A stretch of DNA of 64,000 nucleotides from Stappia sp. ES.058 (GTDB taxonomy: Bacteria > Pseudomonadota > Alphaproteobacteria > Rhizobiales > Stappiaceae): contig NZ_LT629784.1 in assembly GCF_900105595.1 (NCBI RefSeq), forward strand, positions 1,240,001 through 1,304,000, written 5' to 3'. A program made the translations under genes and the position numbers. A model generated the notes under the pieces. The model was not told the origin of the DNA and did not search any database. It was given only the letters and a program-made list of their open reading frames with translations. Position 1 is the first letter of the stretch, and each line of letters opens with the position of its first letter. Below, in pieces: positions 3,264 to 62,853 of this stretch.

Positions 3264-3449
3264 TAAGGCGTGGCGTTCATGCCCGCCGCTTTCCTCTTTT
3301 GTTGGCTCATACGCACAGCAGCAATCGGTTTTTATTGGGATTGTGCATTTATTGCACTGCCCGTGATTCTGCTAAACAAATCAGATAACGCGCGAAGCGT
3401 CGAGATTGTGGCATCTTGCATGATAAATGAGACGGCATCCGGGCCTGGC

Positions 3450-4484: not shown

Positions 4485-4797
4485 TGTTGTTCTCCGGATC
4501 CCGGGTGGGTGTGCAGCGAATCATTCCGGTTGTCTGTTGATCCATCAAACCGTTGAGTTACCGGCTTGACAAACCGATGGCAAGCGAACACCAACGCCAT
4601 GTCTTCTTGGGAAAATCGGCTGCGAAAGGGCGTATCGGAGGGGCCTTGTCGCATTTTCGTCGCAGACGCGTTCCTATAGACGTGTCTGGTCCGTCGGGCG
4701 CGCCCCGTCCTTTGCGGTCACCCTTTGAAGACTGAGCCTGCCGACGCGCCCGTCGCCGGCAAGCTGCGTCTGTCTCGTATCGACTTCAGGAGCACCC
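4485..4797. other. Intergenic region between divergent galE and ugd
   Basis: This 313-base gap must hold the promoters of both divergent genes. I see a TTGACA-like hexamer near 4565 on the plus strand but no well-spaced -10 element, and no open frame with a ribosome site or recognisable product. No operator is proposed. Confidence 0.6.
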
Positions 4798-6123: not shown

Positions 6124-6158
6124 AGACGGGAGGCGCCGGATCGAGCCGGGAGGGGATC

Positions 6159-7010: not shown

Positions 7011-7267
7011 CCGAGATTTTTTACGTAGCGGCTATTGTCGGCAATTCTGTTCCTCGTTCGATCGCCTGTATCCAAATATCAAGGCAACAGATGAAATATC
7101 GCAACCTTGGGTAGCGAATAATTGACATTCAACCAAACGGGTTTTACCGCTTGCGACTGGAAACAGGCAACGTTCGCGCGCATTCGGTTCAACTGCCGTG
7201 AGGCTAAAAAACGTCGGAGTTGCGGGGGTCAGGAGAGGCCGCGTAGGGTGCCCGGCTTGAGGAGTAG

Positions 7268-8176
7268 ATGGTGTACAGTCGAACCAGCCAGCTTTCTCGA
7301 CTTGAAGCGCAGTCCATCGAGATCATCCGCGAGGTGGTTGCGGAGATGGCCCGCCCGGTGATGCTTTATTCGATCGGCAAGGATTCCAGCGTGATGCTGC
7401 ATCTTGCCCGCAAGGCATTCTATCCCGCGCCGCCGCCGTTTCCTCTGCTTCACATCGACACCACGTGGAAGTTTGGCGAGATGATCGCCTTTCGGGACCG
7501 CATGGCGGCGGAGGCTGGTATGGATCTCCTGGTTCACACCAATGCACAAGGCCTCGCCGACGGGGTGAACCCTTTCGATCACGGCGCGTCCTACTACACC
7601 CGGATCATGAAGACCGATGCGCTCAAGCAGGCGCTGGATCACTACGGGTTCGATGCGGCCTTTGGCGGTGCACGGCGGGATGAGGAAAAGTCCCGGGCGA
7701 AGGAGCGGATATTCTCCTTTCGCACGCCGCAGCACGGCTGGGACCCGAAGAACCAGCGCCCGGAGCTCTGGTCGATCTTCAACACGCGGGTTCGGCGCGG
7801 AGAGTCCTTGCGTGTCTTCCCGTTGTCGAACTGGACCGAACTCGACATCTGGCAGTACATCCGCTCCGAAAACATCCCGATCGTACCGCTCTACTACGCG
7901 GCGGAACGGCCGGTGATCGAGCGCGACGGTACGCTGGTGATGGTCGACGACGACCGGATGCCGCTCACTGCTGGCGAGACGCCCGAGATGCGGCGCGTGC
8001 GGTTCCGTACCCTTGGCTGTTATCCGCTGACCGCCGCGATGGATTCGGAGGCCGATACGCTGGACGGCATCGTCACCGAAATGCTGATCGCCCGCACGTC
8101 GGAGCGCTCGGGGCGGCTGATCGATCATGACGAGGCTGCGTCGATGGAAAAGAAAAAGCGCGAAGGCTACTTCTGA
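7268..8176 (+). CDS. cysD: Sulfate adenylyltransferase subunit 2
   Basis: This 302-residue small catalytic subunit of ATP sulfurylase makes APS from sulfate and ATP, driven by the CysN GTPase. It belongs to the PP-loop family: the ATP-pyrophosphatase loop reads YSIGKDS near residue 35, followed by [11 protein letters not shown]. The family signature [15 protein letters not shown] and the C-terminal GCYPLTAA are present. Its start ATG follows TTGAGGAG. It stands 257 bases after cysQ and 10 bases before cysNC, so the two subunits are co-transcribed. No cysH or cysI (assimilatory reduction) is in the window. Confidence 0.96.
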
Positions 8177-8186
8177 GGATGTCGAC

Positions 8187-10070
8187 ATGAACCAGCTCCC
8201 ATCTCTTTCCGGGCCTGCAATGAACGTGCTCGATGATCATGACCAGAAAGGCCTTCTGCGCTTTCTCACCTGCGGCAGTGTGGATGATGGCAAATCGACG
8301 CTGATCGGGCGGCTTCTTCACGACACCAAGCGGGTGCTGGAGGATCAGGTCGCTGCCCTGCGCAGCGATTCTCGCAAATACGGCACCCAGGGCGACAACA
8401 TCGACTTCGCGCTCCTGGTCGACGGTCTGGAAGCGGAACGCGAGCAGGGCATCACCATCGATGTCGCTTATCGGTTCTTTGCCACCGATGCCCGCAAGTT
8501 CATTGTCGCCGACACGCCGGGCCATGAGCAATACACCCGCAACATGGCGACCGGGGCTTCGAACTCCGATCTCGCGGTGATCCTGATCGATGCGCGCAAG
8601 GGCGTGCTTCAGCAGACACGGCGGCACTCCTTCATCGTGTCGCTGTTGGGCATTCGCCATGTTGTCGTCGCGGTCAACAAGATGGATCTGGTCGACAATG
8701 ACGCGAAGGTTTTTGAGCGGATATCGGACGATTACCGCGCCTTTGCGGGCGGCTTCGGCTTCGAGACCCTGCAGGTGATCCCGATCTCGGCGCTGACCGG
8801 CGACAATGTCTCCGCGCGGGCGGCAGGGATGGACTGGTACGAGGGGCCGACGCTGCTGGCGCATCTGGAGACTGTCGGGATCGCGGGAGAGATTTCCGAG
8901 GGACCGTTTCGAATGCCCGTGCAGTGGGTAAATCGTCCCGATCTCGATTTTCGCGGCTATTGCGGCACGCTCGTTGGCGGGCGGGTTCGTCCCGGCGACC
9001 CAATTGCCGTGGCGGCTTCGGGACGACAGGCGACCGTTGAGCGAATCGTCACGATGGATGGCGATCTTGACGAGGCGTTCGCCGGCGATGCGGTGACGCT
9101 CACCTTGAAGGAAGAGATCGACATTTCGCGCGGCGACGTGCTGTGCGCGCCCGATCAGCGTCCGGAGGTGGCGGAAAGGATCGGGGCGCATTTGATCTGG
9201 ATGGATGACAAGCCGCTGGTTGTGGGACGCACCTATGCGATCAAGGCCGGAAAGCGGCTTGCGTCTGCGAGTGTGACCGGCATCGACCATGGCATCGACG
9301 TCAACACTCTTGAGCACCAACAGGTGGAGACGCTTGCGCTCAACGGTATCGGGTACTGTGAACTTGCCCTGTCGACGCCGGTGGCCTTCGACCCCTATGA
9401 GGTCAACCGCGATATGGGGGCGTTTGTCCTGATCGATCCGCTGACCAACCATACGGTGGCGGCCGGCATGATCTGGAAGGCGTTGCGCAAGGCCGACAAT
9501 ATCCACCGACAGGCTTTTGATATCGACCGGTCGGCGCGCGCCGCGCTCACCGGACAGGCGCCGAAGGTTTTGTGGTTCACAGGTCTGTCCGGTGCGGGAA
9601 AATCCACAGTGGCCAATCTGGTCGAACAACGCCTCCATGCCATGGGACGGCTGACCTTCCTGCTTGACGGCGACAACGTGCGCCACGGGCTCAACAAGGA
9701 TCTCGGGTTCTCCGAGGCCGACCGGGTGGAAAACATCCGTCGTGTCGGCGAGGTGGCGAAACTCTTCACCGAGGCGGGCCTGATCACCCTCGTGTCCTTC
9801 ATCTCGCCCTTCCGTTCCGACCGTGAGATGGCGCGCGACCTGTTCCGGCCTGGCGAATTCATCGAGATCCACGTTCACGCCCCGCTCGAAGTTGCCGAAG
9901 CCCGGGATTCCAAGGGGCTTTACAAGAAGGCCCGTGCCGGTGAGATCCGCAACTTCACAGGGATCGACAGCCCCTATGAAGCGCCGGACGGAGCCGAGAT
10001 CGTATTGAACACCGATGGAGCGGATCCGGGAGCGCTCGCGGATGAGGTGATCCGTTATCTCGATCTCTAG
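8187..10070 (+). CDS. cysNC: Bifunctional sulfate adenylyltransferase subunit 1 / adenylylsulfate kinase (CysN-CysC fusion)
   Basis: This 627-residue fusion, NodQ-like in rhizobia, carries out both steps to PAPS. The N-terminal GTPase (about 20-440) shows the P-loop GSVDDGKS (30-37), DTPGHEQY and NKMD, and uses GTP hydrolysis to drive CysD. The C-terminal APS kinase (about 455-627) has a second P-loop GLSGAGKST starting at G466, then [12 protein letters not shown] took ATG 8187 because GAGGA precedes it and the longer frame only overlaps cysD. The fused kinase means the end product is PAPS rather than APS, which suits sulfation of an outer polysaccharide as in nodulation-factor systems; the acceptor is unknown. 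Confidence 0.96.
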
Positions 10071-47600: not shown

Positions 47601-48320
47601 TCAGCTCCGGTCGCCGGGCGTGCCGCATTCGCAGATGTCGTAGCCGGCGCAGGCGGCGGTGTTTGCCACATGCTCGCTCATGGCGCGACGGGCGGCAACG
47701 GAATCGCCGCACGCAAGGGCGTCGATCAGCCGCCGGTGCTCGCTCACGGAGGCTTCCATGCGCTTGGGATCCGTGATCGGGATCGGCTGGCGCTGCGTTT
47801 CCGTGACCTGGTCGCGCACCTGGCCATAGAGTTCGCTCAGCATCTTGTTGCCGCAGGCGCGCGCGATGATCGCGTGGAATTTCAGGTCCGCCTCGACGTT
47901 GGCGAGATAGTCGCGCGCCGCCCATGAGCGCTCCATGTCGTCGGTGAGACGCGCGAGCGTGTCGAGATCGTCGGCGACGAGGCGGCCGGCCGCGCGCGCG
48001 GCAATTTCACCTTCAAGCATCAGTCGCGTCTCGAACACCTCCTTCAGCGAATAGGTATGGGAATAGCGCCATTCCGCCATCGTCTTGGCCGACGCCGGCG
48101 AGGTGCCGACGACGAAGGTGCCCCGTCCCGCTTCAGTCTTGACCAGACCGATGGTCTCGAGCGTCATCAGCGCTTCGCGCAGGGAGGCCCGGCTGACACC
48201 GAACCGTTCGGAAAGTTCGCGTTGTGAAGGGATTTTTTCGCCGGCCTTCAGGTCGCCTTCGAGAATCATCGTCTGGAGTTTGCGCGCCACGCCCTGTGGC
48301 ACCGGGATCCGCGTGAACAT
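47601..48320 (-). CDS. GntR family transcriptional regulator, FadR subfamily (FCD domain)
   Basis: This 239-residue repressor has an N-terminal winged helix (GEKIPSQRELSERFGVSRASLREAL) and a C-terminal FCD ligand-binding domain with metal-site histidines in DLKFHAIIARACGN, EHRRLIDAL and MSEHVANT. FCD proteins sense carboxylic or amino acids. It ends with an unusual cysteine-rich tail (CAGYDICECG). ATG 48320 puts the winged helix near the start; longer in-frame starts up to 48416 are less likely. It is divergent from an amino-acid ABC operon, with a perfect palindromic operator between. Confidence 0.9.
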   Translation of the reverse strand: MFTRIPVPQGVARKLQTMILEGDLKAGEKIPSQRELSERFGVSRASLREALMTLETIGLVKTEAGRGTFVVGTSPASAKTMAEWRYSHTYSLKEVFETRLMLEGEIAARAAGRLVADDLDTLARLTDDMERSWAARDYLANVEADLKFHAIIARACGNKMLSELYGQVRDQVTETQRQPIPITDPKRMEASVSEHRRLIDALACGDSVAARRAMSEHVANTAACAGYDICECGTPGDRS

Positions 48321-48436
48321 CCGCTTTGTCGCCTTTTTGTCTTTGTGAACGCATGTGCGCCGGTGCGGGGCGCGCGCGCCGACCCGGCCGGGAGTGCTCA
48401 ACATTCCACCTTGCACTCATCGCTGCAAAGCGGTTA

Positions 48437-48469
48437 TTTGGTCTAACTGGTCAGACCAGTTAGACCAAA
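48437..48469. promoter_or_regulatory. 33-bp perfect palindromic operator (FadR-type)
   Basis: The arm TTTGGTCTAACTGGTC is followed by a central A and its exact reverse complement. The middle TGGTCAGACCA is the FadR/GntR consensus TGGTNNNACCA, and each arm contains a further GGTCTAACT half-site pair, so two or three overlapping dimer sites are possible. It lies 31 bases before the binding-protein gene and ~117 bases before the divergent FadR-type gene, which is the likely ligand-responsive repressor. Confidence 0.82.
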
Positions 48470-48499
48470 TTAAAAACACTCGCCACCAGGGGACTTCAC

Positions 48500-49300
48500 A
48501 TGAAAATCCGTTCTTTGCTCAAATCCGCCGCCTTTGCGGGCTTCATGACGGTTGCGGCCGGCAGCGCGCCGGTTCTCGCCGCCGATCTCACCGTCGGCGC
48601 CAACATCGGCAACGTGCCGTGGGAATTCCAGGATGAAGCCGGCAAGACCGTGGGCTTCGAGGTCGATCTCGTGAATGAGGTCGCCGGCCGTCTCGACAAG
48701 TCGGTCGCCTTCGAGAACATTCCCTTCAACGGCCTGTTTTCCGCCGTTCAGTCCGGCCGGATCGACATTGCCGTCTCGTCGATCACCATCACCGACAAGC
48801 GTCTGGAATCGGTGACCTTCGCGCAGCCCTACTACGACAGCGACCAGTCGCTGACGGCGACGACGGCGAGCGGCCTCACCTCGCTCGACGACATGTCCGG
48901 CAAGGTGATCGGCGTCGACACTGGTTCGACCGGCGACATGTGGGCAACCGAGAACACCGACACATACGGCTTCTCCGACATTCGCCGTTACGAGGGGCTG
49001 GCGCCCGCGATGCTCGACCTCGCGGCAGGGCGGATCGACGGCTACATCAGCGATATTCCCGCGCTTCTCTACTACACCAAGGACAAGCCGAACCTCGCCG
49101 TGATCCAGCGCATCGAGACGGGTGAGAAATACTCCATGATGTTTGCCAAGGACGCGGCGCTGGCCAAGGAAGTGAACGCGGTTCTGACGACCCTCAAGGA
49201 AGAGGGTGTCGTCGCCAAACTTCACGAGAAGTGGTTCGGCGCGATGCCGGAAGACACCACCTCGACGGTGAAGGTTCTCGACATGCCGAGCCTGAAATAA
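48500..49300 (+). CDS. Polar amino-acid ABC transporter substrate-binding protein
   Basis: This 266-residue family 3 periplasmic binding protein has a signal peptide ending near PVLAA (residue 27). The mature part shows PWEFQDEAGKTVGFEVDLVNEVAGRL and GRIDIAVSSITITDKRLESVTFAQPYY. It delivers a polar amino acid or derivative to the following permease and ATPase. Downstream PLP enzyme and hydantoinase suggest the ligand may be a carbamoyl- or cyclic-amide amino acid; this is inference. ATG follows GGGGAC. Confidence 0.92.
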   Translation: MKIRSLLKSAAFAGFMTVAAGSAPVLAADLTVGANIGNVPWEFQDEAGKTVGFEVDLVNEVAGRLDKSVAFENIPFNGLFSAVQSGRIDIAVSSITITDKRLESVTFAQPYYDSDQSLTATTASGLTSLDDMSGKVIGVDTGSTGDMWATENTDTYGFSDIRRYEGLAPAMLDLAAGRIDGYISDIPALLYYTKDKPNLAVIQRIETGEKYSMMFAKDAALAKEVNAVLTTLKEEGVVAKLHEKWFGAMPEDTTSTVKVLDMPSLK

Positions 49301-49379
49301 GCTCTTGCGACGGAGCGGGGTGCGGTTCCGGCCGCCCCCCGCCGCCACTTGTTTCAGGCCCCGCACCTTGGGACGCCCC

Positions 49380-50054
49380 ATGGACCTGCTCGATACCTTC
49401 TTCAACGTTCCGATCCTGATCCGCACCTTTCCGATGCTGCTCTCGGGCCTGTGGATCACCATCCAGATCGGCGCGACCAGCATCCTGGCCGGCCTGGTGC
49501 TCGGCCTTTTCCTGTCGCTGATCCGTCTCTATGCCGCCAAGCCGCTTGTGCTGATCGCGCGGCTGTATATCGACATCTTCCGCTCGATCCCGCTGCTCGT
49601 GCTGCTCATCGTCGTCTATTATGCGCTGCCCTTCGTCGGCATCCGGCTGTCGCCGTTCCTGTCCGCGGTGACGGCGTTGACGCTCGTCTCCGGGGCCTAT
49701 ACGGCGGAGATCTTTCGTGCCGGCATCGAGGCGATCCCGTCGGGCCAGTTCGAGGCCTCGCGCGCGCTCGGTCTTGGCTACCGGCACATGATGGTCGACG
49801 TGGTGCTGCCGCAGGCCGTCAAGATCGTTATACCGCCGCTGACCAACAACTGCATCAACGTGATGAAGGACACGGCACTCGCCTCCGTGGTCGCCATGCC
49901 GGATCTGCTGAAACAGGCGACGCAGGCCCAGGCGCTTGCCGCCAATCCCAGCCCGCTGATCGGGGCGGCGCTGATCTATCTGGCGTTTCTGTGGCCGCTG
50001 GTGGCACTCGTGTCCCGCTTCGAGCGGCACATGGGACAAAGGGGAGCCCGCTGA
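49380..50054 (+). CDS. Polar amino-acid ABC transporter permease
   Basis: This 224-residue inner-membrane protein of the HisM/GlnP family has about five helices. The EAA motif is seen in [23 protein letters not shown]. The start at ATG 49380 places the first helix normally; the preceding in-frame stretch is proline/arginine-rich and non-helical. Its stop overlaps the ATPase start by one base (TGATG). Confidence 0.92.
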
Positions 50055-50791
50055 TGTCGTCCTTCATCGAGATCCGCAATCTCAACAAGCACTATGGCGC
50101 CTTCGCAGCCCTCACCGACATCGACCTCGACATCGCCGAGGGCGAGGTCGTCTGCGTGATCGGACCGTCGGGGTCGGGCAAGTCGACCTTGATCCGCTGC
50201 ATCAACCTGCTGGAGAGCTTTTCGGACGAGAGCACGGTTCTGGTCGACAAGATCCCGGTGGAGCCTGGCAAGCATCTCGCGCAGGTGCGCGCCGAGGTCG
50301 GAATGGTGTTCCAGTCCTTCAACCTGTTTCCGCACATGACGGTACTGCGCAACATCATGCTGGCACCCCTGCGCGTGCGCGGCCTTTCCCGCGAGCAGGC
50401 CGAAAGGAAGGCACGCGAACTCCTCGAAAGGGTCGGGATCAGCGAGCAGGCTGACAAATACCCGGGGCACCTGTCGGGCGGACAGCAGCAGCGCGTCGCC
50501 ATTGCTCGTGCGCTCGCGATGGAGCCGCGGGTGCTGCTCTTCGACGAGCCGACATCGGCGCTCGATCCCGAGATGGTCGGCGAGGTGCTCGACGTCATGC
50601 GCGATCTCGCCGGCACCGGCGTGACCATGATCGTGGTGACCCACGAGATGGGGTTCGCCCGCCAGGTCGCCGACCGGGTGATTTTCATGAACGGCGGCAA
50701 GATCGTCGAGACCGGCAAGCCGGAAGACATCTTCGACGCGCCGCAGGAACCGCGGACCCGTGACTTTCTCAGCGCGGTCCTCAATCATTGA
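50054..50791 (+). CDS. Polar amino-acid ABC transporter ATP-binding protein
   Basis: This 245-residue ATPase of the GlnQ/HisP family has Walker [10 protein letters not shown] (about 37-45), Q-loop [12 protein letters not shown], signature LSGGQQQR, Walker [15 protein letters not shown] and THEMGFA. It energises the importer formed with the two upstream genes. The PLP enzyme gene follows after 29 bases, indicating one operon. Confidence 0.95.
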
Positions 50792-50820
50792 CCTCACATA
50801 CGACAGTTTCGGAGACAGAT

Positions 50821-52107
50821 ATGCTCACCAATGCGCCGCTCGACATGGAGTATGTCCGCGCCCAGTTCCCCGGCCTGCAAAGCGGCTGGGTGTTTTTCGA
50901 CAATGCCGGCGGGTCGCAAATCCTGAAAGGGGCGGTGGAGCGCATCAACACGTTCCTCTATGAAAAGAACGTCCAGATCGGCGGCAGCTACGAGGTCTCC
51001 CAGGCAGCGGCCGAGGCGCTCAGGCAAGCGCGCGAGGCGGCGCAGCTTCTGGTGAACGCGGAGCGCTCGGACGAGATCGTCTTCGGCGCCTCGACAACGG
51101 TTTTGATGCAGAACCTCGCGGCCGCGATGCGCAGCCAGCTGTCGCCGGGCGACGAGGTCGTCATCTGCGTGGCCGATCACGAGAGCAACATTGGCCCCTG
51201 GGACCGGCTCAGCGAGTTCGGCATCGTCATCAAGACCTGGCCGATCAACCATGAAACGCTGAAGCTGGAGCTGTCCGATCTCGAACCGCTGATGAGCGAG
51301 CGCACGCGGCTCGTCTGCGTGCATCACGTCTCCAACATCCTGGGCGAAATCAACCCGATCCGCGAGATCGCCGATTTCGTCCATGCCCGCGGCGCAAGGA
51401 TCTGCGTCGACGCAGTCGCCTTTGCGCCGCATCGCGCCATCGACGTTCAGGCGCTCGATGTCGATTACTATGCCTTCAGTCTCTACAAGACCTACGGGCC
51501 GCATACCGCCGTGATGTACGGCAAGCATTCCCATCTGCTCGAGCTCGACACGCTCTATCACTATTTCTACGGCAAGGACAAAGTTCCGGGAAAGCTGGAG
51601 CCGGGCAATCCGAACTACGAGCTCGCTTATTCTATTCTCGGAATTACCGAGTATCTGCAGCAGCTTGGCCGACGTGCCGGCGCGGCGGGCAAATCCCCGC
51701 GCGACCAAATCGAGGCGGCCTTTTCGGCGATTACCGCGCAGGAAAACACGCTGGTCGAGCGCCTGCTCGCCTGGGCCAACGGCCGCGACGACGTGCATCT
51801 TGTCGGTCAGGGCGAGAACACGCCCGGCTCGACGCGCATTCCGACCATCGCCTTCACGGTGGACGGCTGGGTGCCGGAAGCGCTCTGCCGGGAGATGGAC
51901 CCCAAGGGCATCGCCATCCGTCACGGCGACTTCCATTCCCGTCGTTTGATCGAGGATCTCGGACTGGCCGAAGCCGGCGGCGTCGTGCGCGTTTCCATGG
52001 TCCACTACAACACGCTGGAAGAACTCGACCGCATGACCCGGGAACTGGACGCGGTTCTGGACGCGGCGCGCGGCGGTGCCCGACAGGCGCGGGCAGGTGG
52101 CGCATGA
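50821..52107 (+). CDS. Class V aminotransferase-fold PLP enzyme (cysteine desulfurase-like)
   Basis: This 428-residue fold type I PLP protein has the Schiff-base lysine K223 in SLYKTYGPHTAVMYG and the cofactor site AVAF preceded by ARICVDAVAF. The N-terminal FDNAGGSQ matches the cysteine-desulfurase-like branch. I see no obvious mobile-loop cysteine for desulfurase work near the C-terminus, so a lyase, aminotransferase or racemase role is more plausible. ATG 50821 has GGAGA at five bases. It overlaps the hydantoinase gene in ATGA, so the two proteins are made together and probably act on successive intermediates. Confidence 0.88.
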   Translation: MLTNAPLDMEYVRAQFPGLQSGWVFFDNAGGSQILKGAVERINTFLYEKNVQIGGSYEVSQAAAEALRQAREAAQLLVNAERSDEIVFGASTTVLMQNLAAAMRSQLSPGDEVVICVADHESNIGPWDRLSEFGIVIKTWPINHETLKLELSDLEPLMSERTRLVCVHHVSNILGEINPIREIADFVHARGARICVDAVAFAPHRAIDVQALDVDYYAFSLYKTYGPHTAVMYGKHSHLLELDTLYHYFYGKDKVPGKLEPGNPNYELAYSILGITEYLQQLGRRAGAAGKSPRDQIEAAFSAITAQENTLVERLLAWANGRDDVHLVGQGENTPGSTRIPTIAFTVDGWVPEALCREMDPKGIAIRHGDFHSRRLIEDLGLAEAGGVVRVSMVHYNTLEELDRMTRELDAVLDAARGGARQARAGGA

Positions 52108-53516
52108 GCGCGGCCCCCTTCGACACGGTCATTCGCGGCGGCACGGTGGTGACCGCCGCCGATGCCGTCACCTGCGATGTCGGCATCCGCGACGGCAGGA
52201 TCGTCGCGCTCGGCTCGGATCTCGCCAAAGGTGCGCGCGAGATCGACGCGACCGGACTGCTGGTCATGCCGGGCGGCATCGACAGCCATGTGCATATCGC
52301 CCAGCCGTCGGGCGCGGGCATCGTCATGGCGGATGATTTCGAAAGCGCCACGCGCTCCGCGATCCTTGGCGGCAACACCACGGTGATGCCCTTCTGCCTG
52401 CAGGAAAAGGGCGTCGGCCTGCGCGAGGCGCTCAACGGCTACCACGCCCTCGCTGAAGGAAACTGCTACACGGACGTGAGCTTCCACCTGATCGTCTCCG
52501 ATCCGACGCCGACGGTTCTGGGGCAGGAAATGCCGGCGCTCGCGGAAGAGGGCTACACCTCGATCAAGGTCTTCATGACCTACGAGGGCCTGCGCCTGCG
52601 CGACGACGAGATCCTGGCGACGCTCGATTCCGCGCGCCGGTCGAAGCAGGTCGTTCTGGTGCATTGCGAGAACGAGGACGCGATCCGCTATCTGATCGGC
52701 CGGCGCGAGGAAGACGGCGACACCGCGCCCTATCACCACGCGACCAGCCGGCCGATCGCCGCCGAGCGCGAGGCAACCCACCGCGCGCTGTCGCTGGCCG
52801 AAATCGTCGACACGCCCATCGTCATCGTCCATGTCTCCAACCGCGAGGCGATGGAAGAGATCGGCCGTGCGCGGATGCGCGGTCAGAAAATCGCCGGCGA
52901 GACCTGCCCGCAGTATCTGGTGCTCACCGCCGAGGATCTCGACACGGAAGACTTCGAGGGCGCGAAATACGTCTGCTCGCCGCCACCGCGCGACAAGCCG
53001 AGCCAGGATGCCTGCTGGCAGGGGCTGGAGACCGGCGTCTTCGACCTCTTCTCCTCCGACCACTGCCCGTTCCGTTTCGAGGATAGCGCCGGCAAGAAGA
53101 CGGAAAAGGGCAGAAAGTCCTTCCGCTGGATCCCGAACGGCATTCCAGGCGTCGGCACGCGGCTTCAGATCCTGTTCTCGCAAGGCGTCGCCACGGGCCG
53201 CATCGACGTCAACCGCTTCGTCGAACTCACCGCCACCAACCACGCGAAGCTCTACGGCCTCTATCCGCAAAAGGGCACGATTGCGGTCGGGTCCGATGCC
53301 GACATCGCGATCTGGGACCCGACCGCAAAGGGCACCATCCGCAACGCCGACCTCCAGCACGGCGCCGACTACACGCCCTATGAAGGCATGGAGATCACCG
53401 GGCATCCGGTCACGGTTCTGCTGCGCGGCGAAGTCGCGGTGGAGAACGGCGAACTGGTCGCGCAAAAGGGGCAGGGCGCCTATCTTCCGCGCGGGCAAAG
53501 CAGCCTGTTTCGCTGA
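52104..53516 (+). CDS. Dihydropyrimidinase/D-hydantoinase family amidohydrolase
   Basis: This 470-residue cyclic-amidase has all binuclear metal ligands: H62 and H64 (HVH), carboxylated K155 (SIKVFMTYEG), H187, H243 and D319 (SSDHCPF). The substrate-stabilising tyrosine, normally near residue 150-160, is Y160. It hydrolyses hydantoins, dihydropyrimidines or related cyclic imides to N-carbamoyl acids. No carbamoylase is adjacent, but the minus-strand cluster past 56 kb encodes a hydantoin-racemase-like protein. It is the last gene of its operon; the AT-rich island begins about 75 bases after the stop. Confidence 0.93.
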   Translation: MSAAPFDTVIRGGTVVTAADAVTCDVGIRDGRIVALGSDLAKGAREIDATGLLVMPGGIDSHVHIAQPSGAGIVMADDFESATRSAILGGNTTVMPFCLQEKGVGLREALNGYHALAEGNCYTDVSFHLIVSDPTPTVLGQEMPALAEEGYTSIKVFMTYEGLRLRDDEILATLDSARRSKQVVLVHCENEDAIRYLIGRREEDGDTAPYHHATSRPIAAEREATHRALSLAEIVDTPIVIVHVSNREAMEEIGRARMRGQKIAGETCPQYLVLTAEDLDTEDFEGAKYVCSPPPRDKPSQDACWQGLETGVFDLFSSDHCPFRFEDSAGKKTEKGRKSFRWIPNGIPGVGTRLQILFSQGVATGRIDVNRFVELTATNHAKLYGLYPQKGTIAVGSDADIAIWDPTAKGTIRNADLQHGADYTPYEGMEITGHPVTVLLRGEVAVENGELVAQKGQGAYLPRGQSSLFR

Positions 53517-53741
53517 GGGGCGGCGCGCATTGCGCGGGTCGACGCGGTGGGACTACTGGGCCTCGAAGCGCACGGCGATACGATCAACTGAGTACATAAA
53601 AGTGGGCATACTTCCGTCGGTTGTATGGCCGCGCCATTCTGGCACCGAGTTTAGTAAACAAAGAGCATTTGGTGAGCTAAGATAGTTGACGTAGGGTTTT
53701 TTTATGGCTATTTACGAGATGTAAGTCTGGGGGGCGCTGTT

Positions 53742-55289
53742 TTGTCACTATATGATTTATTGACTCCAAAAGAACCCCTTGGTCCGATTGATCAGTCTGA
53801 TATTTCCGAAGAAAGAGATGCCGCAGAACTAATTGAATTGGTTCCGCCATTTCTTCATTCGCTTGAGCGTCGCGCATCTATTATCTTGGGCCGAAAAGGT
53901 TCCGGAAAGTCTTCTGTGCTTTCCGGATACAAATCATATAAAACATTCTTAGAGCGAGCAAGTAAAATTTCAATAGGCTCTCTGCCAAATGGCGACTATG
54001 TCGTTCCAATCGTCACTTGGGACCATTTTCACGACATGGTAAGAAGTGTTGCTCGGCAAAGAGCTTTAGATTTAGAAGAATTGGCGGATCCTGAGCTTGT
54101 TTCTCCTGAGAGAGTTGCAGAGTATTGGTTTGAAGCGGAATGGGACGAGATCATAAAGTGGTTCTATGACCACTTTATTGAAATGGATGCAGATCAGAGT
54201 TTATTTGAGCCCATCAGGCAGTATTTTGAAGCGGAGCCTATGGGGCTTGATGCGATATCCGATGCGAAAGTATTTGATAGCCTTTTTAAGTCAGCAAAGG
54301 AGGCAATATCAAGCTATTTGGTGAAAATGAATAGAAAGTGTTATATTCTTTTTGATAGCATGGAAAAATATCCGGTTCGAAACCAACTTTTTTATTTAGT
54401 TGCAGAAGGATTTCTGAGGTCTATAAGCAAATTCAACGCGGCGAATCCAAATATTGACATAATATTTTGCTTTCCAGAGGAGTTGGAGGCTGAATTTAGA
54501 TCGTCAAACTATCTCAAAGACTTTAAAGGGGCCTATAGACTTCGTTGGAAACCTATCGATCTTTTAAGAGTTGTCGCTCATCGATATAGACTCTTTCTAA
54601 GAGAGCATGACCCTTTGTTTTTTAAAGATTTCGCGTCAGAGATTGATCTTACCAATAGAGAAGATGTGCAAGCATTCTTTAAGAAAGTTCTCCCTCCCGA
54701 TGTTGAAAACAGACTTGGCCAGAAGGAAGATCCTCTTGCCTACATAATTCGGCATACGCATCTCGTTCCCCGTCATGTCTTGCTAATTATGAACAAGATT
54801 ATCCTTGATTCTCATGAGGAAACCGGAGGCTATCGGCGTCTGCTGAGAGATTCGATCGTCAAAGGAATTCATGAGACTGAAGAACTTATTTGTGATCAAA
54901 TTCTGTCGCCCTACAAGGTATTGTATCCGCTTCTCTTAGAAAACTTACCGCGAGTAATAGCAGATGTTGGTCCTGTAGCTACCTACCAGGAGGTTAACAA
55001 GGTGCTCGGGAGGCTCAAGGGACTTACTGAAGTTGAGCCGCATCAAATGTGGAACATTCTATATGAGATTGGAATCTTAGGGCGCATTGAGAACAGTCGA
55101 GGTAGCGGCGTTGGTCGCTACAGTTATGGTAGGTTTCATTTTGTTGAGGGCGGCCAGATCGGTGCCGCAACCGATGCACTTTATTGTTTCCACCCCACAT
55201 TTTCACGTTACTACGGACTGATACGTCAAGGTGCGTACGAGAAAACTATTATTTATCCGGATGGCGTCGAGGAGTTTGTGCCGCGATGA
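53742..55289 (+). CDS. P-loop ATPase resembling the Sll1717 family, horizontally acquired
   Basis: This 515-residue protein has Walker A G50-RKGSGKS-57 and Walker B YILFDSME (D205, E208). A sensor-like strand IDIIFCFPEEL follows, and then a C-terminal winged-helix-looking region (VATYQEVNKVLGRLKGL, MWNILYEIGILGRI). It resembles the Sll1717-type P-loop ATPases, loosely STAND/AAA-like; this is from memory of the family, not a search. No signal peptide or membrane helix is seen. The only usable start is TTG 53742, with a G-run upstream. Codon use is AT-rich, unlike the neighbours. The stop overlaps the membrane-protein start in ATGA. Function is unknown; pairing with a membrane protein suggests regulation of a membrane effector. 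Confidence 0.8.
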   Translation: MSLYDLLTPKEPLGPIDQSDISEERDAAELIELVPPFLHSLERRASIILGRKGSGKSSVLSGYKSYKTFLERASKISIGSLPNGDYVVPIVTWDHFHDMVRSVARQRALDLEELADPELVSPERVAEYWFEAEWDEIIKWFYDHFIEMDADQSLFEPIRQYFEAEPMGLDAISDAKVFDSLFKSAKEAISSYLVKMNRKCYILFDSMEKYPVRNQLFYLVAEGFLRSISKFNAANPNIDIIFCFPEELEAEFRSSNYLKDFKGAYRLRWKPIDLLRVVAHRYRLFLREHDPLFFKDFASEIDLTNREDVQAFFKKVLPPDVENRLGQKEDPLAYIIRHTHLVPRHVLLIMNKIILDSHEETGGYRRLLRDSIVKGIHETEELICDQILSPYKVLYPLLLENLPRVIADVGPVATYQEVNKVLGRLKGLTEVEPHQMWNILYEIGILGRIENSRGSGVGRYSYGRFHFVEGGQIGAATDALYCFHPTFSRYYGLIRQGAYEKTIIYPDGVEEFVPR

Positions 55290-55657
55290 GTTTGTATAAA
55301 GTCAGCTTTTTTGTGGGAATATTTATTATTATATTTGGATTCTGTTTTGCTTTGTTATTCGACGATCCGTATTTATTTCGCCGTTTTGGTGCTCTTACAA
55401 CAGGGTATGCTGCGTGTCTTGTGCTGTTGCAGATTGCCCTCGAGAATAATTTTGAAGCGCAGAAAGAAGAGAGCAAATTAAACGACAGTGATGAACTGTC
55501 GCCTGTTAAAGAAAAGTGGCTTCGTAAAAGAAACGATAAGAAATTCTTATTTTACTCTCAAAAACGAATGTCTATTGCACTTATAGTTGCGAGTTTGGCG
55601 TTATTGGGTGAGATTGTTCATGGATTCGGTGACTTTCTTGTAAAAATATTCATTTGA
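55286..55657 (+). CDS. Small three-helix membrane protein coupled to the P-loop ATPase
   Basis: This 123-residue protein starts at ATG 55286, overlapping the ATPase stop by four bases. Predicted helices by eye are at about 5-25, 34-53 and 95-114. Between the second and third lies a charged segment (about 54-94, with KEKWLRKRNDKK). It has no family I recognise; its size and topology are comparable to small pore- or membrane-disrupting effectors but not clearly SLATT. AT-rich codons match the ATPase gene. An upstream start at 55184 would sit inside the ATPase gene and is unlikely. Confidence 0.75.
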   Translation: MSLYKVSFFVGIFIIIFGFCFALLFDDPYLFRRFGALTTGYAACLVLLQIALENNFEAQKEESKLNDSDELSPVKEKWLRKRNDKKFLFYSQKRMSIALIVASLALLGEIVHGFGDFLVKIFI

Positions 55658-55686
55658 AGCGGTTTGAGGCAATTTTCTTTGGTTGA

Positions 55687-56405
55687 ACTACTTGTGTTTC
55701 TGTGGGGTGCTATCCAGCGGAACTTTTTGAGCATGCCAAATTTGCGCGCGATGACATTCCGGCCTTTGTAAAATTTTGGCGAGAAACAGTTTTTCCATTG
55801 TCTTGTTTTGCGTGGCAGGGCGGAGAGGGCAATGTCTCCTCCGCTTCCACTGAACGACGGATAATATCGCTATTGTAGCCGTTGTCGCAATGCATGGTAC
55901 CATCTTGCTGGAAGAGCAGAAGAAACGCTTTGGCACCAATAAAGTCTGTCACGTTTGGGCCGGTCAGGTGGAAGGAAACAGGACGTCCCTGATGATCACT
56001 CAGGGCGTAGAACTTTGTTCTCGCACCACCATGAGATCGCCCCCGGGAATGGACTTTAGCCCCCTATTCCGCTACGTGCGACCCGATGGGCTCCAACCGC
56101 CGTGCTATCAATCATGACCTTGAGAGTTGGACCGCCATTTCGCGAACGACTATCGAAAACCGTTCTCCAGACATCCTTACATCCTTGTTGGCCCATCGAA
56201 CGAACCGATTGTAGAGGGTTTTCCTTGGGTCGCAGACTCCCGGGGCATCAATCCAGTGGTCGCCAGACTTTAGGGCATGAATGATGCCGCTGATCACTGG
56301 TCGATCATCGACACGTGCCTTACCACGCGTATTGGTTGGTAGAAACGGCTGCAACTTTGAAATGTTCTCATCGTTGAGCCAAAATAACCCATCAAACAGC
56401 GCCAA
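55687..56405 (-). pseudogene. Decayed IS5-family (IS427/IS1031-like) transposase
   Basis: The N-terminal 75 residues are intact from ATG 56405 (LPTNTRGKARVDDRPVISGI, then TLYNRFVRWANKDV). The DDE region is then broken over several frames: MIDSTAVGAHRVA (first Asp) ends in a stop near 56060, GRSHGGARTKFYALSDHQGR and HCDNGYNSDIIRRSV follow in another frame, and the last part (KGRNVIARKFGMLKKFR) in a third. At least two frameshifts and one stop are needed, so it is inactive. I could not find convincing terminal inverted repeats. It marks the right part of the island and may have helped bring the ATPase pair. Confidence 0.85.
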
Positions 56406-56488
56406 ACTCCCTTTCAGGAGCTTGAATCAGATCTCACATGATTTGCTCAGTCGTCTTATGGATCTGAAGCCCAGGTCTGCGCAAAGCT

Positions 56489-56521
56489 AAAAAACCGGAG
56501 CGCGTGTCGCGCCCCGGCTTT
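56489..56521 (-). terminator. Terminator at the end of the minus-strand operon
   Basis: GCCGGGGCGCG and CGCGCTCCGGT (one mismatch) form a hairpin followed by TTTTTTA on the minus strand. It lies about 32 bases past the SDR stop and marks the end of the catabolic operon. Confidence 0.85.
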
Positions 56522-56552
56522 CGTCGTTCACCGCTTCTGAGGCCAACCCGCC

Positions 56553-57329
56553 TCAGATGCCCTTGATCGCGCCGCCGTCGATGCGGATGCGGCTGCCGGT
56601 GACGTAGCTTGCCCGCGTCGAGGCGAGGAAGGTGACGACGTCGGCGAACTCCTGCGGTTTGCCGTAGCGGCCGGCGGGGATGGCGGCGGCCGAGGCGGTT
56701 GCGACGTCCTCCACCGGCTTGCCGGTGCGCTTTGCGGCGGCGGCGTCCAGCTCGTCGACGCGGGCGGTGTGGATGCGGCCCGGCAGCACGACGTTGACCG
56801 TCACGCCGTCCTTGGCGACTTCGTTGGACAGCGTTTTCGACCAGCCGACGACGGCGGCGCGAATGCCGTTGGACAGCGCGAGGTTGGGGATCGGCTGTTC
56901 CACGCCCGACGAGGCGATGGTGATCACCCGGCCGAAGCCGCGTTCCTGCATCTTCGGCAGGAAGCGCCCGGTGATGTGGAAGAGATTGGCGGCCATGCCC
57001 TCGAACTGGGCGATCCAGTCGCCGCGCTTGGCGGCCTGTGCGGTGCCCGGGGGCGGGCCGCCGATGTTGTTGACGAGGATGTCGACGCCACCCTTGGCCA
57101 GCAGGTCGTCGACGGCCTTGTCCACCGCCGCGATGTCGGTGAGATCGAGCGCGAGCGCCTCGACCTTGCCGGCCGGCAGATCGGCGGCCCAGTCGCGGAT
57201 GGTGTCGGCGTTGCGCGCGGCGGCGATCACATGCGCACCTTCGGCCGCCAGCGTTTCGGCGATGGCACGGCCGAGACCACGGCTTGCGCCGAGCACCAGC
57301 GCTTTCTTGTCGGCAAGACCCAGATCCAT
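56553..57329 (-). CDS. SDR-fold oxidoreductase lacking the canonical YxxxK pair
   Basis: This 258-residue Rossmann protein has the cofactor motif GASRGLG (14-20) and NNIGG (87-91), and the serine pair at S140-S141. At the place of the catalytic tyrosine and lysine (about 153-157) it reads SNGIR (LALSNGIRAAVVGWSK) instead of YxxxK, as in a known divergent SDR subgroup. It may use other residues or serve a different reaction. It is the last gene of the operon; its start overlaps the aldolase/lyase stop (TGATG). Confidence 0.88.
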   Translation of the reverse strand: MDLGLADKKALVLGASRGLGRAIAETLAAEGAHVIAAARNADTIRDWAADLPAGKVEALALDLTDIAAVDKAVDDLLAKGGVDILVNNIGGPPPGTAQAAKRGDWIAQFEGMAANLFHITGRFLPKMQERGFGRVITIASSGVEQPIPNLALSNGIRAAVVGWSKTLSNEVAKDGVTVNVVLPGRIHTARVDELDAAAAKRTGKPVEDVATASAAAIPAGRYGKPQEFADVVTFLASTRASYVTGSRIRIDGGAIKGI

Positions 57330-58252
57330 CAGTTCAGCTCCTTCAATCGGTTTTCCTGGCGCGCGATCAGGCGGTCGACTTCCGCGCGCGTCGTTGCGTC
57401 CAGCGCGTTGCCCGGCTTGCGCAGGGCGGGGGAGGCGATGATCCCGCGCTTGGCGAGGGTGTATTTGCGAATGGCAAGACCGAGGCCCGGCTGCTGCTCG
57501 AAGCGCGCGAGCGGCAGATAGGCGTCGAACAGGTCGCGGGCCCGCTCCATGTCGCCCCTGGCGTGATGCTCCACGACGGTCGCCATCATCTCCGGATAGG
57601 CAAAGCCGGTCATCGCGCCATCGGCGCCGCGCTCCATTTCCTCCGGCAGGAACATGCCGCCGTTGCCGCAGAGGATGGAAATGCGCCGGTCGAGGGTGCC
57701 TTCCTTGCGCAAAGCGGTGATCTTGGCAAGCCCCGGCCAGTCCTCATGCTTGAGGCAGACGCAGCTGGGAAGCGTGTTGACGATCCGCGCGATGGTTGAG
57801 ACCGACATCTGCACGTTCGTTGCGAGTGGGAAATCCTGCAGCACGAAGGGCACGTCGCCGATCAGCTCCGCAACTTGCGTGTAATAGCCAACGATCTGGT
57901 CGTCGGTGCGAAGCGCGCCCGGAGGGGCGATCATCACGCCGGCGGCGCCGTCGCCCATCACCATCCTGGTCAGCGCGTCGATCTGGGCAAAGCCGGGCGC
58001 CGAGACGCCGGCGACGACGGGAACGCGGCCCTGCACCCGCTTGAGGATGCGTCCGACGACCGTGCGGGATTCCTCGACCGTGAGCTTGGGCGCTTCGCCC
58101 ATCATGCCGAGCACCGTCAGGCCGGTGGCGCCGGCCTCCAGATAGAAGTCGACGAGCTTGTCGCAGCCCTCCAGATCGAGCGCGCCCGTGTCGGTAAACG
58201 GTGTGATGGCAATGACATAGACGCCGCGGGCGTCTTCGCTCAGTCGGATCAT
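57329..58252 (-). CDS. Dihydrodipicolinate synthase/N-acetylneuraminate lyase family protein
   Basis: This 307-residue TIM barrel has Schiff-base K168 in CVCLKHEDWPG and the pyruvate-site GMMGEAPKLT. The tyrosine motif YNxP of true DapA is replaced by QDFPLATN, so lysine biosynthesis is unlikely; an aldolase, lyase or dehydratase on a carboxylic acid in catabolism fits better. It lies between a racemase and an SDR gene in the same operon. Start ATG 58252. Confidence 0.88.
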   Translation of the reverse strand: MIRLSEDARGVYVIAITPFTDTGALDLEGCDKLVDFYLEAGATGLTVLGMMGEAPKLTVEESRTVVGRILKRVQGRVPVVAGVSAPGFAQIDALTRMVMGDGAAGVMIAPPGALRTDDQIVGYYTQVAELIGDVPFVLQDFPLATNVQMSVSTIARIVNTLPSCVCLKHEDWPGLAKITALRKEGTLDRRISILCGNGGMFLPEEMERGADGAMTGFAYPEMMATVVEHHARGDMERARDLFDAYLPLARFEQQPGLGLAIRKYTLAKRGIIASPALRKPGNALDATTRAEVDRLIARQENRLKELN

Positions 58253-58274
58253 TGTGTCGTCTTCCTTTTCACGT

Positions 58275-58934
58275 TCAATCGCAGCGGGCGAGCGCGATGC
58301 GGCCGAGCGCCATTGCGGTCGCGGCCTGGCACGGGTCGATGACCGGAATGCCCAGCGTTTGCTGAAGGTCCTGTCGGTAGCGCGCCATGCCGGCGCAGCC
58401 GAGGATGAGAACGTCGGCGCCGTCGGCGTCGCGAAGCTGCGCGCCGACCTCGTCGAGGCGCGCGCGGGTGCGGGTCTCGTCGGAGAGGTCCGCCACGCCG
58501 AGATCGATCGGACGGTCGGCGGCCAGCCGGTCGAGAAGGCCCATGGCGCCGAGCGTCCTGATGTGGCGCGCGACCGAGCCGCGCTTGATCGAGAGAATGC
58601 CGAAGCGCTGGCCCATGGTCAGCGCGGTGATATAGGCGCTCTCGCCGATGCCGAGCACCGGACGGGCGCTTTGCTCGCGCAGCGCCGCAAGACCGGGATC
58701 GGAGAAACAGGCGATAACGAAGGCGCTCGCCCCCGCCTCCAGCGCGCGCGCCTGTGCAAGCAGCGGCAGCACGACGCCGTCGACGTGAGCTTGTGTCTCT
58801 ATCCCCTCCGGTCCCTCTGGGAGAAGGTGGCAGCGGATGTCGACCCCCGCGCCCGCGCGCATCGGATCGATGGCCGCATCGATCCCGTCGGTGACGACGC
58901 GCGAGGAGTTCGGGTTGAGGATATGCAGGGTCAT
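58275..58934 (-). CDS. Aspartate/glutamate racemase superfamily protein, hydantoin racemase-like
   Basis: This 219-residue protein opens with LHILNPNSS, typical of hydantoin racemase (HyuE), and has the two catalytic cysteines C76 (VIACFSDPG) and C180 (LILGCAGM). Such enzymes interconvert 5-substituted hydantoin enantiomers, or act as maleate isomerase/allantoin racemase relatives. The ATG overlaps the stop of the amidohydrolase gene by four bases. With the hydantoinase at 52104 it could give complete turnover of racemic hydantoins. Confidence 0.88.
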   Translation of the reverse strand: MTLHILNPNSSRVVTDGIDAAIDPMRAGAGVDIRCHLLPEGPEGIETQAHVDGVVLPLLAQARALEAGASAFVIACFSDPGLAALREQSARPVLGIGESAYITALTMGQRFGILSIKRGSVARHIRTLGAMGLLDRLAADRPIDLGVADLSDETRTRARLDEVGAQLRDADGADVLILGCAGMARYRQDLQQTLGIPVIDPCQAATAMALGRIALARCD

Positions 58935-60379
58935 GAGCGGGTCTCCCTATCGCTTGCGCGCGGATGCTTCCAGAAACCTTCGTGCATCTCCAGATCCTTT
59001 TGCGCGCCGATGCGCGCGATCATGGCGTTCGTCTCGCGTTCGGCGTCGGCGAGGATCGTAGCGCTTGAGACGCGTGTCGGCTTGCGGTTCCTGAGGCAGA
59101 TCTCACCGCCGACGATCACCGTATCGACGTCGTTGCCGTTCGCGAAGTTTATGACGCGGTGTGCCGCCATGTTGTCGGGCGCCAGATGCGGGCGCTGCAT
59201 GTCGACGAGGATCATGTCTGCACGCTTGCCCGGCTCGAGCGAGCCGATCTCCGCGTCGAGGCCGAGCGCCCTGGCCGCGTCGATGGTCGCCATTTCCAGC
59301 ACCTTGCCCGGCGGCAGCACCTTCGGATCCTGAAAATGCCTGCGGTGATAATGCATCGCCTGCTGCATGTGGCGGAACATGTCGCCCGATCGATCCGGCG
59401 CGGTCGCATCCGAGCCGAGGCCGACGGTGACGCCGGCTTCCATCAGCTCGATGGCCGGGCAGCGGCCCATGATCGAGGCGACGGCGGAGGGATTGTGCGC
59501 GATACGGGTTTGTGTATCGGCGCAGATCCCGATTTCCTCGGCGGTGATGTCGATGGCGTGCGACAGAAGCGCGTCGGGCCCGAGCAGGCCGAGATCCTTG
59601 GCGCGCGTGACCGAACCGCGCCAGTGCCCGTCCTGGGTGAAGACGACCTTCGCCTCGCGCGACAGCGCGCGCGTCGCCTGCGCCTGGCGGATCGCTTCGG
59701 CATAGTCGCCCGGTGACATGTCGCGCTCGTGTTCGTCGCGCAGCACGGGATAGAGCAGGGCGATCATCACCCGGTTGTCGCCCGCGCAGTGCCAGTCGGC
59801 CAGAAGGCGCTTGCAGGTTTCAAGCTGGGTTTCGAAGGTGACCGGCTTCGGGTCCGCGCCGCCATTGGCATAGGTGCGCGGATGCGGCGCGCGTGTCGGC
59901 CCGACGGCGACCACGGAGCGCGTGCCGACCTCCAGCACACCCTTCGCATGGGCCGCGCCATAGACGGGATCGTCGGTGCGCATGATCGTGTCGCCGCCGC
60001 CGAGCAGCGAGACGCCGGTGGTGACGCCGAAGGTCAGCCGCTCCAGCGCCGCGAGCCGGGCTTCCGCATACCAGAACTCCGGGGTCGAGCCGGTGGTATA
60101 GACCTCGCCGCAAATCTCTTCCCAGCGGTTGCCGCTGTCCATGCCCATTGTCTTGATCAACCCGTGGCCGGCATGGGCGTGAACGTCGATCAGACCGGGC
60201 AGAACCACCTTGCCGGTGGCGTCGAGCGTCTCGGCGTTCGGATAGCGCTCCGCGACCTCCGCTGCCGTTCCGACAGCGACGATGCGCCCGTCGGAAATGG
60301 CGACGGCGCCGTTCTCGATGATGCGGCGCTCCGGATCGATTGCGATGACGGTTCCGCCGGTGACGATGAGATCAGCCAT
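58931..60379 (-). CDS. Amidohydrolase family protein (chlorohydrolase/cytosine-deaminase-like)
   Basis: This 482-residue enzyme has H67 and H69 in DVHAHAGHG, later metal-site histidines in FTQDGHW and LLSHAID, and the terminal aspartate in GLGSDATAPDR. The pattern is that of the mononuclear ATZ/TRZ-like group, which deaminates or hydrolyses heterocycles and guanidines. It probably converts the compound imported by the adjacent Dpp-type transporter; the substrate is not known. It overlaps the racemase gene by four bases and the binding-protein gene by eight. Confidence 0.88.
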   Translation of the reverse strand: MADLIVTGGTVIAIDPERRIIENGAVAISDGRIVAVGTAAEVAERYPNAETLDATGKVVLPGLIDVHAHAGHGLIKTMGMDSGNRWEEICGEVYTTGSTPEFWYAEARLAALERLTFGVTTGVSLLGGGDTIMRTDDPVYGAAHAKGVLEVGTRSVVAVGPTRAPHPRTYANGGADPKPVTFETQLETCKRLLADWHCAGDNRVMIALLYPVLRDEHERDMSPGDYAEAIRQAQATRALSREAKVVFTQDGHWRGSVTRAKDLGLLGPDALLSHAIDITAEEIGICADTQTRIAHNPSAVASIMGRCPAIELMEAGVTVGLGSDATAPDRSGDMFRHMQQAMHYHRRHFQDPKVLPPGKVLEMATIDAARALGLDAEIGSLEPGKRADMILVDMQRPHLAPDNMAAHRVINFANGNDVDTVIVGGEICLRNRKPTRVSSATILADAERETNAMIARIGAQKDLEMHEGFWKHPRASDRETRS

Positions 60380-61834
60380 GGGCGGTCTCCGTGTCGGTGG
60401 TGAATGCGGGGAGGTCCGCGACGTCGATCACGCCGTCCTCGCGCATGCGGAAACCGGGATGGTTGCCGGAAAGCCCGATGGCACGATGCGGAATGTAGAG
60501 CGTCAGCCATGCCGGGTCGCTTTGCAGCTCCGCATAGGCCTTGCGGTAGAGCGCGGCGCGGGCCTGCGTGTCCGACGTGACGCGTCCCTCGTCGATCAGT
60601 GCCTCGATGGCTTCGTTGCGATAGCCCTGCCACCAGGCGCCCGCCGTGCGGGAATCGATCTTCTCGTAGAGCACGCGGAAGGTGGACATCGGGCTGGAAT
60701 CGAACACGCAGAGATCGCCGATCTCCTTGCGCCGGACCATATGGGCATAGGCCTCGCGGTCCTTGTGGATGCGCACGTCGAAACGAACGTCGATGGCGGC
60801 AAGCTGCGCGCCGAGATCGGCGGTGAGCTTTTGCGCCTCGTCCGGCAGTCGCGTGGGGCAGTCGAGCGTCAGCGTCAGTCCGTCGGCATGGCCGGCCTCT
60901 GCAAGAAGCGCGCGCGCCGCCGCGACATTCGGACCGGGAACGGGATCGCCGCCGGCGCCGAAGTGGCGCGGACTGACGAACCCGTGCAGCGGATCGGCGG
61001 CGCCGTCGAGAACCGTATCGATCAGGGCCTGGCGGTCGACGGCGAGCGAAAGGGCCCGGCGGACGCGGGCGTCCTGCAACGGTCCCTTGGCGGAGTTCAG
61101 CAGATAGATGATCGCCACCGGCGCGGTGAAGCGCACCAGCATCGCACCGGCAACCGTGCCGATATGCGGATCGAGCGAATTGGCGACCTGCACGCGCCCG
61201 TCGGCCAGCATGCGCGCCCGTTCCTTTGCATCCGTTTCAAGGACGAAGACAAGCGTCTCGTTTTTGGGCGCCGTCGCGAAATGGTCGGGGTTGCGGGTCG
61301 CGGTGACACGGTCCTTGCCCGCGCTTTGCAGCCGATAGGGCCCGGTTCCGCAAATGGCGGTCTTGTCGCCGGCGTCGAGCCTGTCGAAGACGGACGGCGC
61401 CACGATGAAGCCCTGGACAAGAACGTCGAGGAGATCGGCCATCGGCGCCGTCAGGCGAACGGTGAGCGTCAGGCCGTCGGCCTCGATCTCCGCGCCGCCG
61501 AGATACTGCCGCCAGACGGCAGGCGATCCCAGCGTATAGCCCTTGTCCTCGCGGGCCATGCGATGCAGCGACTGCGCGACAGCAGCCGCGTCGCAGGCCG
61601 TTCCGTCGTGAAACGCGACGCCGGACCGGATGTCGAAGGTCCATGTGCGGGCATCGTCGCTGACGCGCCAGCCTTCGGCGAGGTGAGCGTGATAGGTCCC
61701 GTCGCGACGCTTCACCAATGTGTCGTAGAAGGTCTGGTACAGTGTTAGCTCGTCATTGGCGTCGGTGCAGTCATGCGGATCGCCGAGCGGCAGGCGGGGC
61801 AGGGCGATCGTCACGGGGGCGGCGTCAGCATACG

Positions 61835-61838
<4 letters not shown>
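60372..61838 (-). CDS. Dpp/Opp-type ABC solute-binding protein without a visible signal peptide
   Basis: This 488-residue family 5 binding protein has the typical fold: LYQTFYDTLVKR, WTFDIRSGVAFHDGTA, VRRALSLAVDRQALI and a late YIPHRAIGLSGN. Unusually the N-terminus (MTYADAAPVTIALPRLPLGD) has no hydrophobic signal sequence, and the start overlaps the ATPase gene in ATGA, leaving no room for another start. It may be cytosolic, or export may rely on something else. It should bind a peptide-like or nitrogenous ligand for the following permeases. Confidence 0.85.

Positions 61839-62853
<1,015 letters not shown>

Follow-up and report, generated by a model that had tools for sequence, protein, structure and literature searches.

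RexAB combines a cytosolic sensor and a membrane effector in a two-gene layout, and resembles the gene pair described here in idea. A small helical membrane protein beside a regulator is likewise found in Csx23, Csx28, Cam1 and Cap15. Other systems are known to use small membrane effectors that perturb the membrane (PMC11014256), the transmembrane proteins of anti-phage systems are believed to act as suicide effectors (PMC9122126), and DS-41 is listed among validated anti-phage systems (PMC13092281); the NCBI model DS41_1_antiphage (NF053860) was equated with this DS-41 from its name. The P-loop ATPases of the Sll1717 family (NCBIfam NF047389) are widespread. In a 64,000-nucleotide (nt) stretch of the Stappia sp. 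ES.058 genome (NZ_LT629784.1, positions 1,240,001 to 1,304,000; hereafter the window) a gene for such an ATPase overlaps the gene of an undescribed three-helix membrane protein. Because this pairing recurs in distant bacteria, it may serve defence against phage, or self-defence of a similar kind, as a device not yet characterised. The ATPase family itself is already known; what is new is the clade-specific pairing with an undescribed membrane protein, of which no description was found in the accessible text of the open literature searched.

The ATPase gene (53742..55289, + strand) begins with TTG and encodes 515 residues, and the membrane protein gene (55286..55657, + strand) begins with ATG at 55286 and encodes 123 residues. 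The two share 4 nt in an ATGA overlap, as a previous reading of the sequence alone (the sequence-only reading) had described. The chance that a random frame of the same composition stays open for 515 codons is p ~2e-15, and protein searches found homologues for both frames. Overall GC content and GC content at third codon positions (GC3) are 0.426 and 0.388 for the ATPase gene, and 0.360 and 0.347 for the membrane protein gene. Amongst the 37 non-overlapping open reading frames (ORFs) of at least 200 residues in the window (median GC3 0.725), a set for which the membrane gene is too short, the ATPase gene has the lowest GC3. The composition of the pair is foreign, in agreement with the AT-rich, foreign character attributed to it before.

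A scan of genome contigs with one peptide pattern returned 16 ATPase loci, and in 4 of them (34-37% identical to the window ATPase) the ATPase gene is immediately followed by the membrane gene. Given the start codons chosen, the two genes overlap by 23 nt in Roseateles, 14 nt in Pelomonas and 23 nt in Massilia; in Sphingorhabdus, where the ATPase is broken, they are separated by a 14-nt gap. Counting the window, the membrane gene lies directly 3' of the ATPase in 5/5 loci of the window's own clade with readable DNA. A motif scan of each fetched locus found it in 0/42 other Sll1717 loci, made up of the 12 distant loci of the scan (23-28% identity), 29 further loci above the family cut-off (27 genomes) and the locus of genome G227; the flanks covered were mostly 4-5 kb per side, shorter where a contig ended, and 1.5 kb for G227. 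The window ATPase belongs to NF047389, yet its own clade is distant from the rest of the members seen and has a dedicated membrane partner that was not found beside them.

A profile search of 17 whole genomes chosen for having the ATPase (those of the 16 loci and G227) detected the membrane protein in the 4 paired genomes and in none of the 13 others. In 399 genomes of Massilia's order, the sole full membrane protein match was the Massilia pair itself. A match in genome G982 (E 7.3e-4), confined to profile positions 4-43, was rejected. The 17 ATPase-selected genomes, the 399 genomes of this order and the fetched loci yielded no membrane homologue that lacked the ATPase; most metagenome homologues have no visible neighbours. 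The sequence-only reading had singled out conservation beyond close strains and the occurrence of solitary membrane homologues as points to be checked; on the first, the recurrence in Roseateles, Pelomonas, Massilia and Sphingorhabdus speaks for the pair, as does the negative outcome on the second.

In a maximum-likelihood tree of 80 ATPase rows, the window's group (65 rows) was split from 15 distant rows with support of 100/100. The five loci with a known partner sit on at least three separate branches of the 65-row group, and the pairing therefore looks old in the window clade, as judged from the five loci in which partner status is readable. The partner label needs 5 changes on this tree, where most rows are metagenome proteins whose neighbours are not visible. 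Several long branches were flagged, and there is some redundancy (P0047 is a copy of L003, P0068 a copy of L010, and P0027 nearly a copy of L004). Pairing of P0001 with P0070 and of P0002 with P0071 was deduced only from contigs of the same size (6704 and 3370). The 29 further loci are outside the tree, and BLASTP set them apart from the own clade: the best own-clade score among them was 168 bits, for L088 (276 bits against a distant row), and the others scored 58 bits or less, or not at all.

The own clade of the ATPase is rare. The Sll1717 family as such exceeded its cut-off in 28/348 genomes sampled from the phylum. Eleven of 385 genomes of the class had any ATPase match, and only the window's genome carried an own-clade protein, that of G227 belonging to the distant group and the rest being partial. 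In 200 genomes of the Pelomonas family there were 2 own-clade ATPases, both already known, and 4 partial matches; 6 of 298 genomes of the Sphingorhabdus family had any match (its own broken copy, 1 distant-group protein and 4 partial ones).

Assignment of the window ATPase to the Sll1717 family rests on its curated score of 127.3 bits over residues 35-490 (cut-off 75), and the protein thus has a family name. We found no mention of Sll1717 in the open papers searched. The Walker A motif (GRKGSGKS, residues 50-57) and a second acidic motif (LFDSME, with D205 and E208) are intact, as the sequence-only reading had stated. G50, G53, G55, K56 and D205 are invariant across 41 aligned rows (alignment A1), which comprise the window ATPase and 40 of 68 matches from protein searches that scored just those candidates sharing most words. 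A conserved RHTxLxPRH at residues 337-345 may be a lid motif. The predicted structure has an AAA+ core, whose best matches are ORC/Cdc6 and STAND ATPases (archaeal STAND ATPases, BREX BrxC, NLRs), with low global TM-scores. Unlike ORC/STAND proteins, the window ATPase has neither a recognised repeat sensor domain nor a fused effector, its partner being a separate gene. At E <=0.1, 18/41 A1 rows matched Pfam ORC-CDC6-like and 9/41 weakly matched NACHT.

Other profile matches were scattered. A phage protein family whose function is not known (phrog_13260) matched the window ATPase at E 1.5e-5. PADLOC PDC-M28C, on which no mention of PDC-M28 was found in the open papers searched, matched 17/41 A1 rows (best 2.8e-7), and mad8 matched 14/41 (best 2.5e-4); the window ATPase was among neither set at E 0.1. 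Matches of the window ATPase to AbiLi, AAA_29 and DUF4303 were rejected. The ATPase profile gave one weak match to PDB sequences, the FlhF P-loop (E 0.015). There was no match between the window ATPase and plasmid or phage sequences, between the A1 profile and viral contigs, or between a cyanobacterial Sll1717 ATPase and plasmids.

The closest link to a named defence system is through DS41_1. Its model matched 36/41 A1 rows, including the window ATPase, at E <=0.1 (best 1.7e-7), and the match covers the same stretch in the window ATPase and two other proteins. At 14.5 bits against an equivalog cut-off of 370, the window ATPase is by score not DS41_1, and the window's own genome had no DS41_1 match at E 0.001. 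Among 299 genomes the model matched in 17 and exceeded its cut-off in 1 (G622), whose protein passes both DS41_1 (396.0 vs 370) and Sll1717 (112.6 vs 75). The same holds for a protein on an E. coli conjugative IncF plasmid (CP058102.1), with 414.7 vs 370 and 96.4 vs 75. Because these DS41_1-passing proteins also pass the Sll1717 model, the Sll1717 family, in the bounds that NCBI gives it, includes a protein that NCBI names anti-phage. The window ATPase is distantly related to this protein: the best BLASTP piece scored 25 bits and was not collinear, and hhalign gave 157 columns at E 0.0021 with a probability of 13%. In the examined stretches of the two DS41_1 loci, a membrane gene of the window type is absent. 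The plasmid protein (3254-4762 of locus L118) is annotated as hypothetical, and a gene for a RES family NAD+ phosphorylase is nearby. Searches with a DS41_1-passing protein against phages, and with its DNA against E. coli genomes, gave no match.

The three membrane helices previously read from the smaller protein were recovered twice, as three hydropathy peaks (6, 34 and 97, with the weakest in the middle) and as helices 3-24, 28-68 and 73-122 of an AlphaFold2 model with a mean pLDDT of 87. No Pfam or NCBIfam family reaches its cut-off in this protein; matches to ETRAMP and other Pfam families were rejected, all being under cut-off. Its profile found no relative among PDB sequences at E 1, and fold comparison of the model gave no informative match. 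Two protein searches yielded 18 relatives, itself counted. In 19 aligned rows, R33, G35, A36, A43, E53, G108, E109, H112, G113 and G115 are invariant, while Q49 is conserved in 18/19 and D116 in 17/19. These residues form three motifs, namely R33xGA where helix 2 begins, Q49 with E53, and GExxHGxG(D) at 108-116 in helix 3. Conservation of Glu, His and Asp within a membrane helix suggests a pore or ion path. Neither the protein against plasmids nor profile A4 against viral contigs gave a match; A4 was made without P0069, which is the window protein itself, and without P0075, a shorter version of P0073.

Helices 1-2 weakly matched PADLOC Csx23 (E 4.8e-4, 18.3 bits, profile positions 12-70 of 143), and this match was seen in 4/19 rows. 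Membership was provisionally rejected, since the match is weak and limited to helices 1-2. The C-terminal half is modelled as a single long helix. The window protein has a long third helix instead of the Csx23 cA4-binding C-terminal domain, as that domain is presented in the accessible part of PMC11014256, and did not match it.

The pair lies in an AT-rich inserted segment (53519..56494), whose bounds are the points where homology to three congeneric genomes breaks off. The flanks (to 53518; from 56483 or 56495) are ~89-92% identical in these genomes, homology resuming at 56483 in one of the three. The site holds 2.0 kb with a 435-residue ORF and a 99-residue membrane ORF in one congener (L139, G912), 3.8 kb with ORFs that include a regulator-like one in the second, and 0.57 kb with no recognised gene in the third. 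Thus, the insertion site is strain-variable, and the window-type ATPase is present in 1/14 genomes of the genus, the window's own. The insert in L139 (~5052-7057) has a lower GC content of 0.53, and its 435-residue ORF looks like a Hint-domain polymorphic toxin. Downstream of the pair, the transposase remnant seen earlier (56112..56405, - strand) was assigned to the IS4/5 family (PF13340, 48.8 bits, cut-off 34.3). The neighbourhood of the Sphingorhabdus copy includes HsdR, HsdM, HsdS, GmrSD, a resolvase and a TraI-like helicase; a transposase start that by eye is like the window's IS4/5 remnant abuts this copy with its broken ATPase (L012, 1-212). Around the Roseateles, Pelomonas and Massilia copies no defence gene was recognised among the ORFs, read by eye, and the same holds for the window copy, where the ORFs of 48000-62000 were read in this way.

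Starting from the genes, their family and predicted fold, the clade-specific pairing, the overlap and the variable site, we suggest that the pair is a horizontally moved two-gene module of the abortive-infection type, in which an ATP-gated ATPase switch would turn on a membrane effector; the probability of this reading is put at about 0.6. The ORC/STAND-type ATPase would rest in a closed, nucleotide-bound state until triggered by an infection or invading-DNA cue, and would probably assemble upon ATP binding. The triggered ATPase might then act on the charged linker of the membrane protein (residues ~53-94, probably cytosolic), whereupon helix 3, with its invariant E109/H112/G113/G115, could open a pore or otherwise disturb the membrane. 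Such a disturbance would stop growth of the infected cell. The earlier proposal of a candidate defence pair stands in part: the ATPase is linked by family to the NCBI-named anti-phage protein, and a clear defence-island context is seen in 1/5 loci. The loci are few and this count has no random control.

A toxin-antitoxin-like guard is unlikely. Here the membrane protein would be toxic alone and restrained by the ATPase, for element maintenance or general stress and not against phage. Wherever the ATPase frame is open (4 loci), the two genes overlap (start codons as chosen), the pair is cargo at a variable site beside transposase remains, and identity drops faster in the membrane partner (76/66%) than in the ATPase (91/84%), all of which would suit a guard. 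However, the regulator is a large ORC/STAND-like ATPase, to our knowledge unusual as an antitoxin, and its family holds the protein named anti-phage by NCBI. Less probable still is a mobile-element or plasmid device, in which a TnsC/Cdc6-like ATPase with a membrane anchor would serve target choice, entry exclusion or partition: the remnant beside the pair is of the IS4/5 type, and such elements, as far as we know, require no ATPase partner; reading by eye revealed no mobile element common to the surroundings of the Roseateles, Pelomonas and Massilia copies, and no plasmid record matched. A cellular membrane-stress or regulatory role unrelated to conflict, for which the lack of recognised defence genes near 4/5 copies might speak, is just as improbable in view of the foreign composition, the variable site and the patchy distribution (1/14 in the genus; alone in 385 genomes of the class, bar distant relatives and weak partial matches).

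The abortive-infection-type reading can be set beside the partners of other Sll1717 ATPases. In L089 a HEPN protein gene (2223-2666; PF05168, 32.7 bits vs 22) directly precedes the ATPase. The L017 ATPase (Acrocarpospora) overlaps in ATGA a 645-residue ORF (6539-8476) with several membrane helices and a patatin-like start (17.6 bits, under the cut-off of 27.7). In Hellea, a 576-residue FAD-dependent oxidoreductase (L010, 6666-8396; DAO 28.3 vs 27.9) and a 563-residue protein with an oxidoreductase match below cut-off (L008, 3199-4890) come right after the ATPase. L072 has an N-terminal nucleoside deoxyribosyltransferase-like region (27.9 bits, just under the cut-off of 28.8). Several other scanned neighbours gave no family, and many loci have no tight partner. 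These cases, few in number and with two of the four domains named being below cut-off, fit one switch combined with different effectors across the family. ORFs resembling the L089 HEPN protein were also observed directly before the ATPases of L090 and L092, the Sll1717-group ATPases across these three loci having 876-893 residues. In the actinomycete locus L013, a weakly ORC-CDC6-like gene (3298-4968, below cut-off) stands just before the ATPase and a 260-residue membrane ORF (6622-7404) after it.

A more specific proposal is made tentatively. The pair might be a new abortive-infection system, in which the ORC/STAND ATPase is sensor and trigger for a new family of channel-like membrane effectors (RxGA...Q...E, GExxHGxG(D)), and which forms a branch of an Sll1717/DS-41 superfamily with varied effectors (membrane protein, HEPN, lipase-like, oxidoreductase). 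If the pair is immune in function, the widespread Sll1717 family would gain a tractable two-protein model whose membrane effector is new to description, and DS-41 would then look like a single branch within a modular superfamily.
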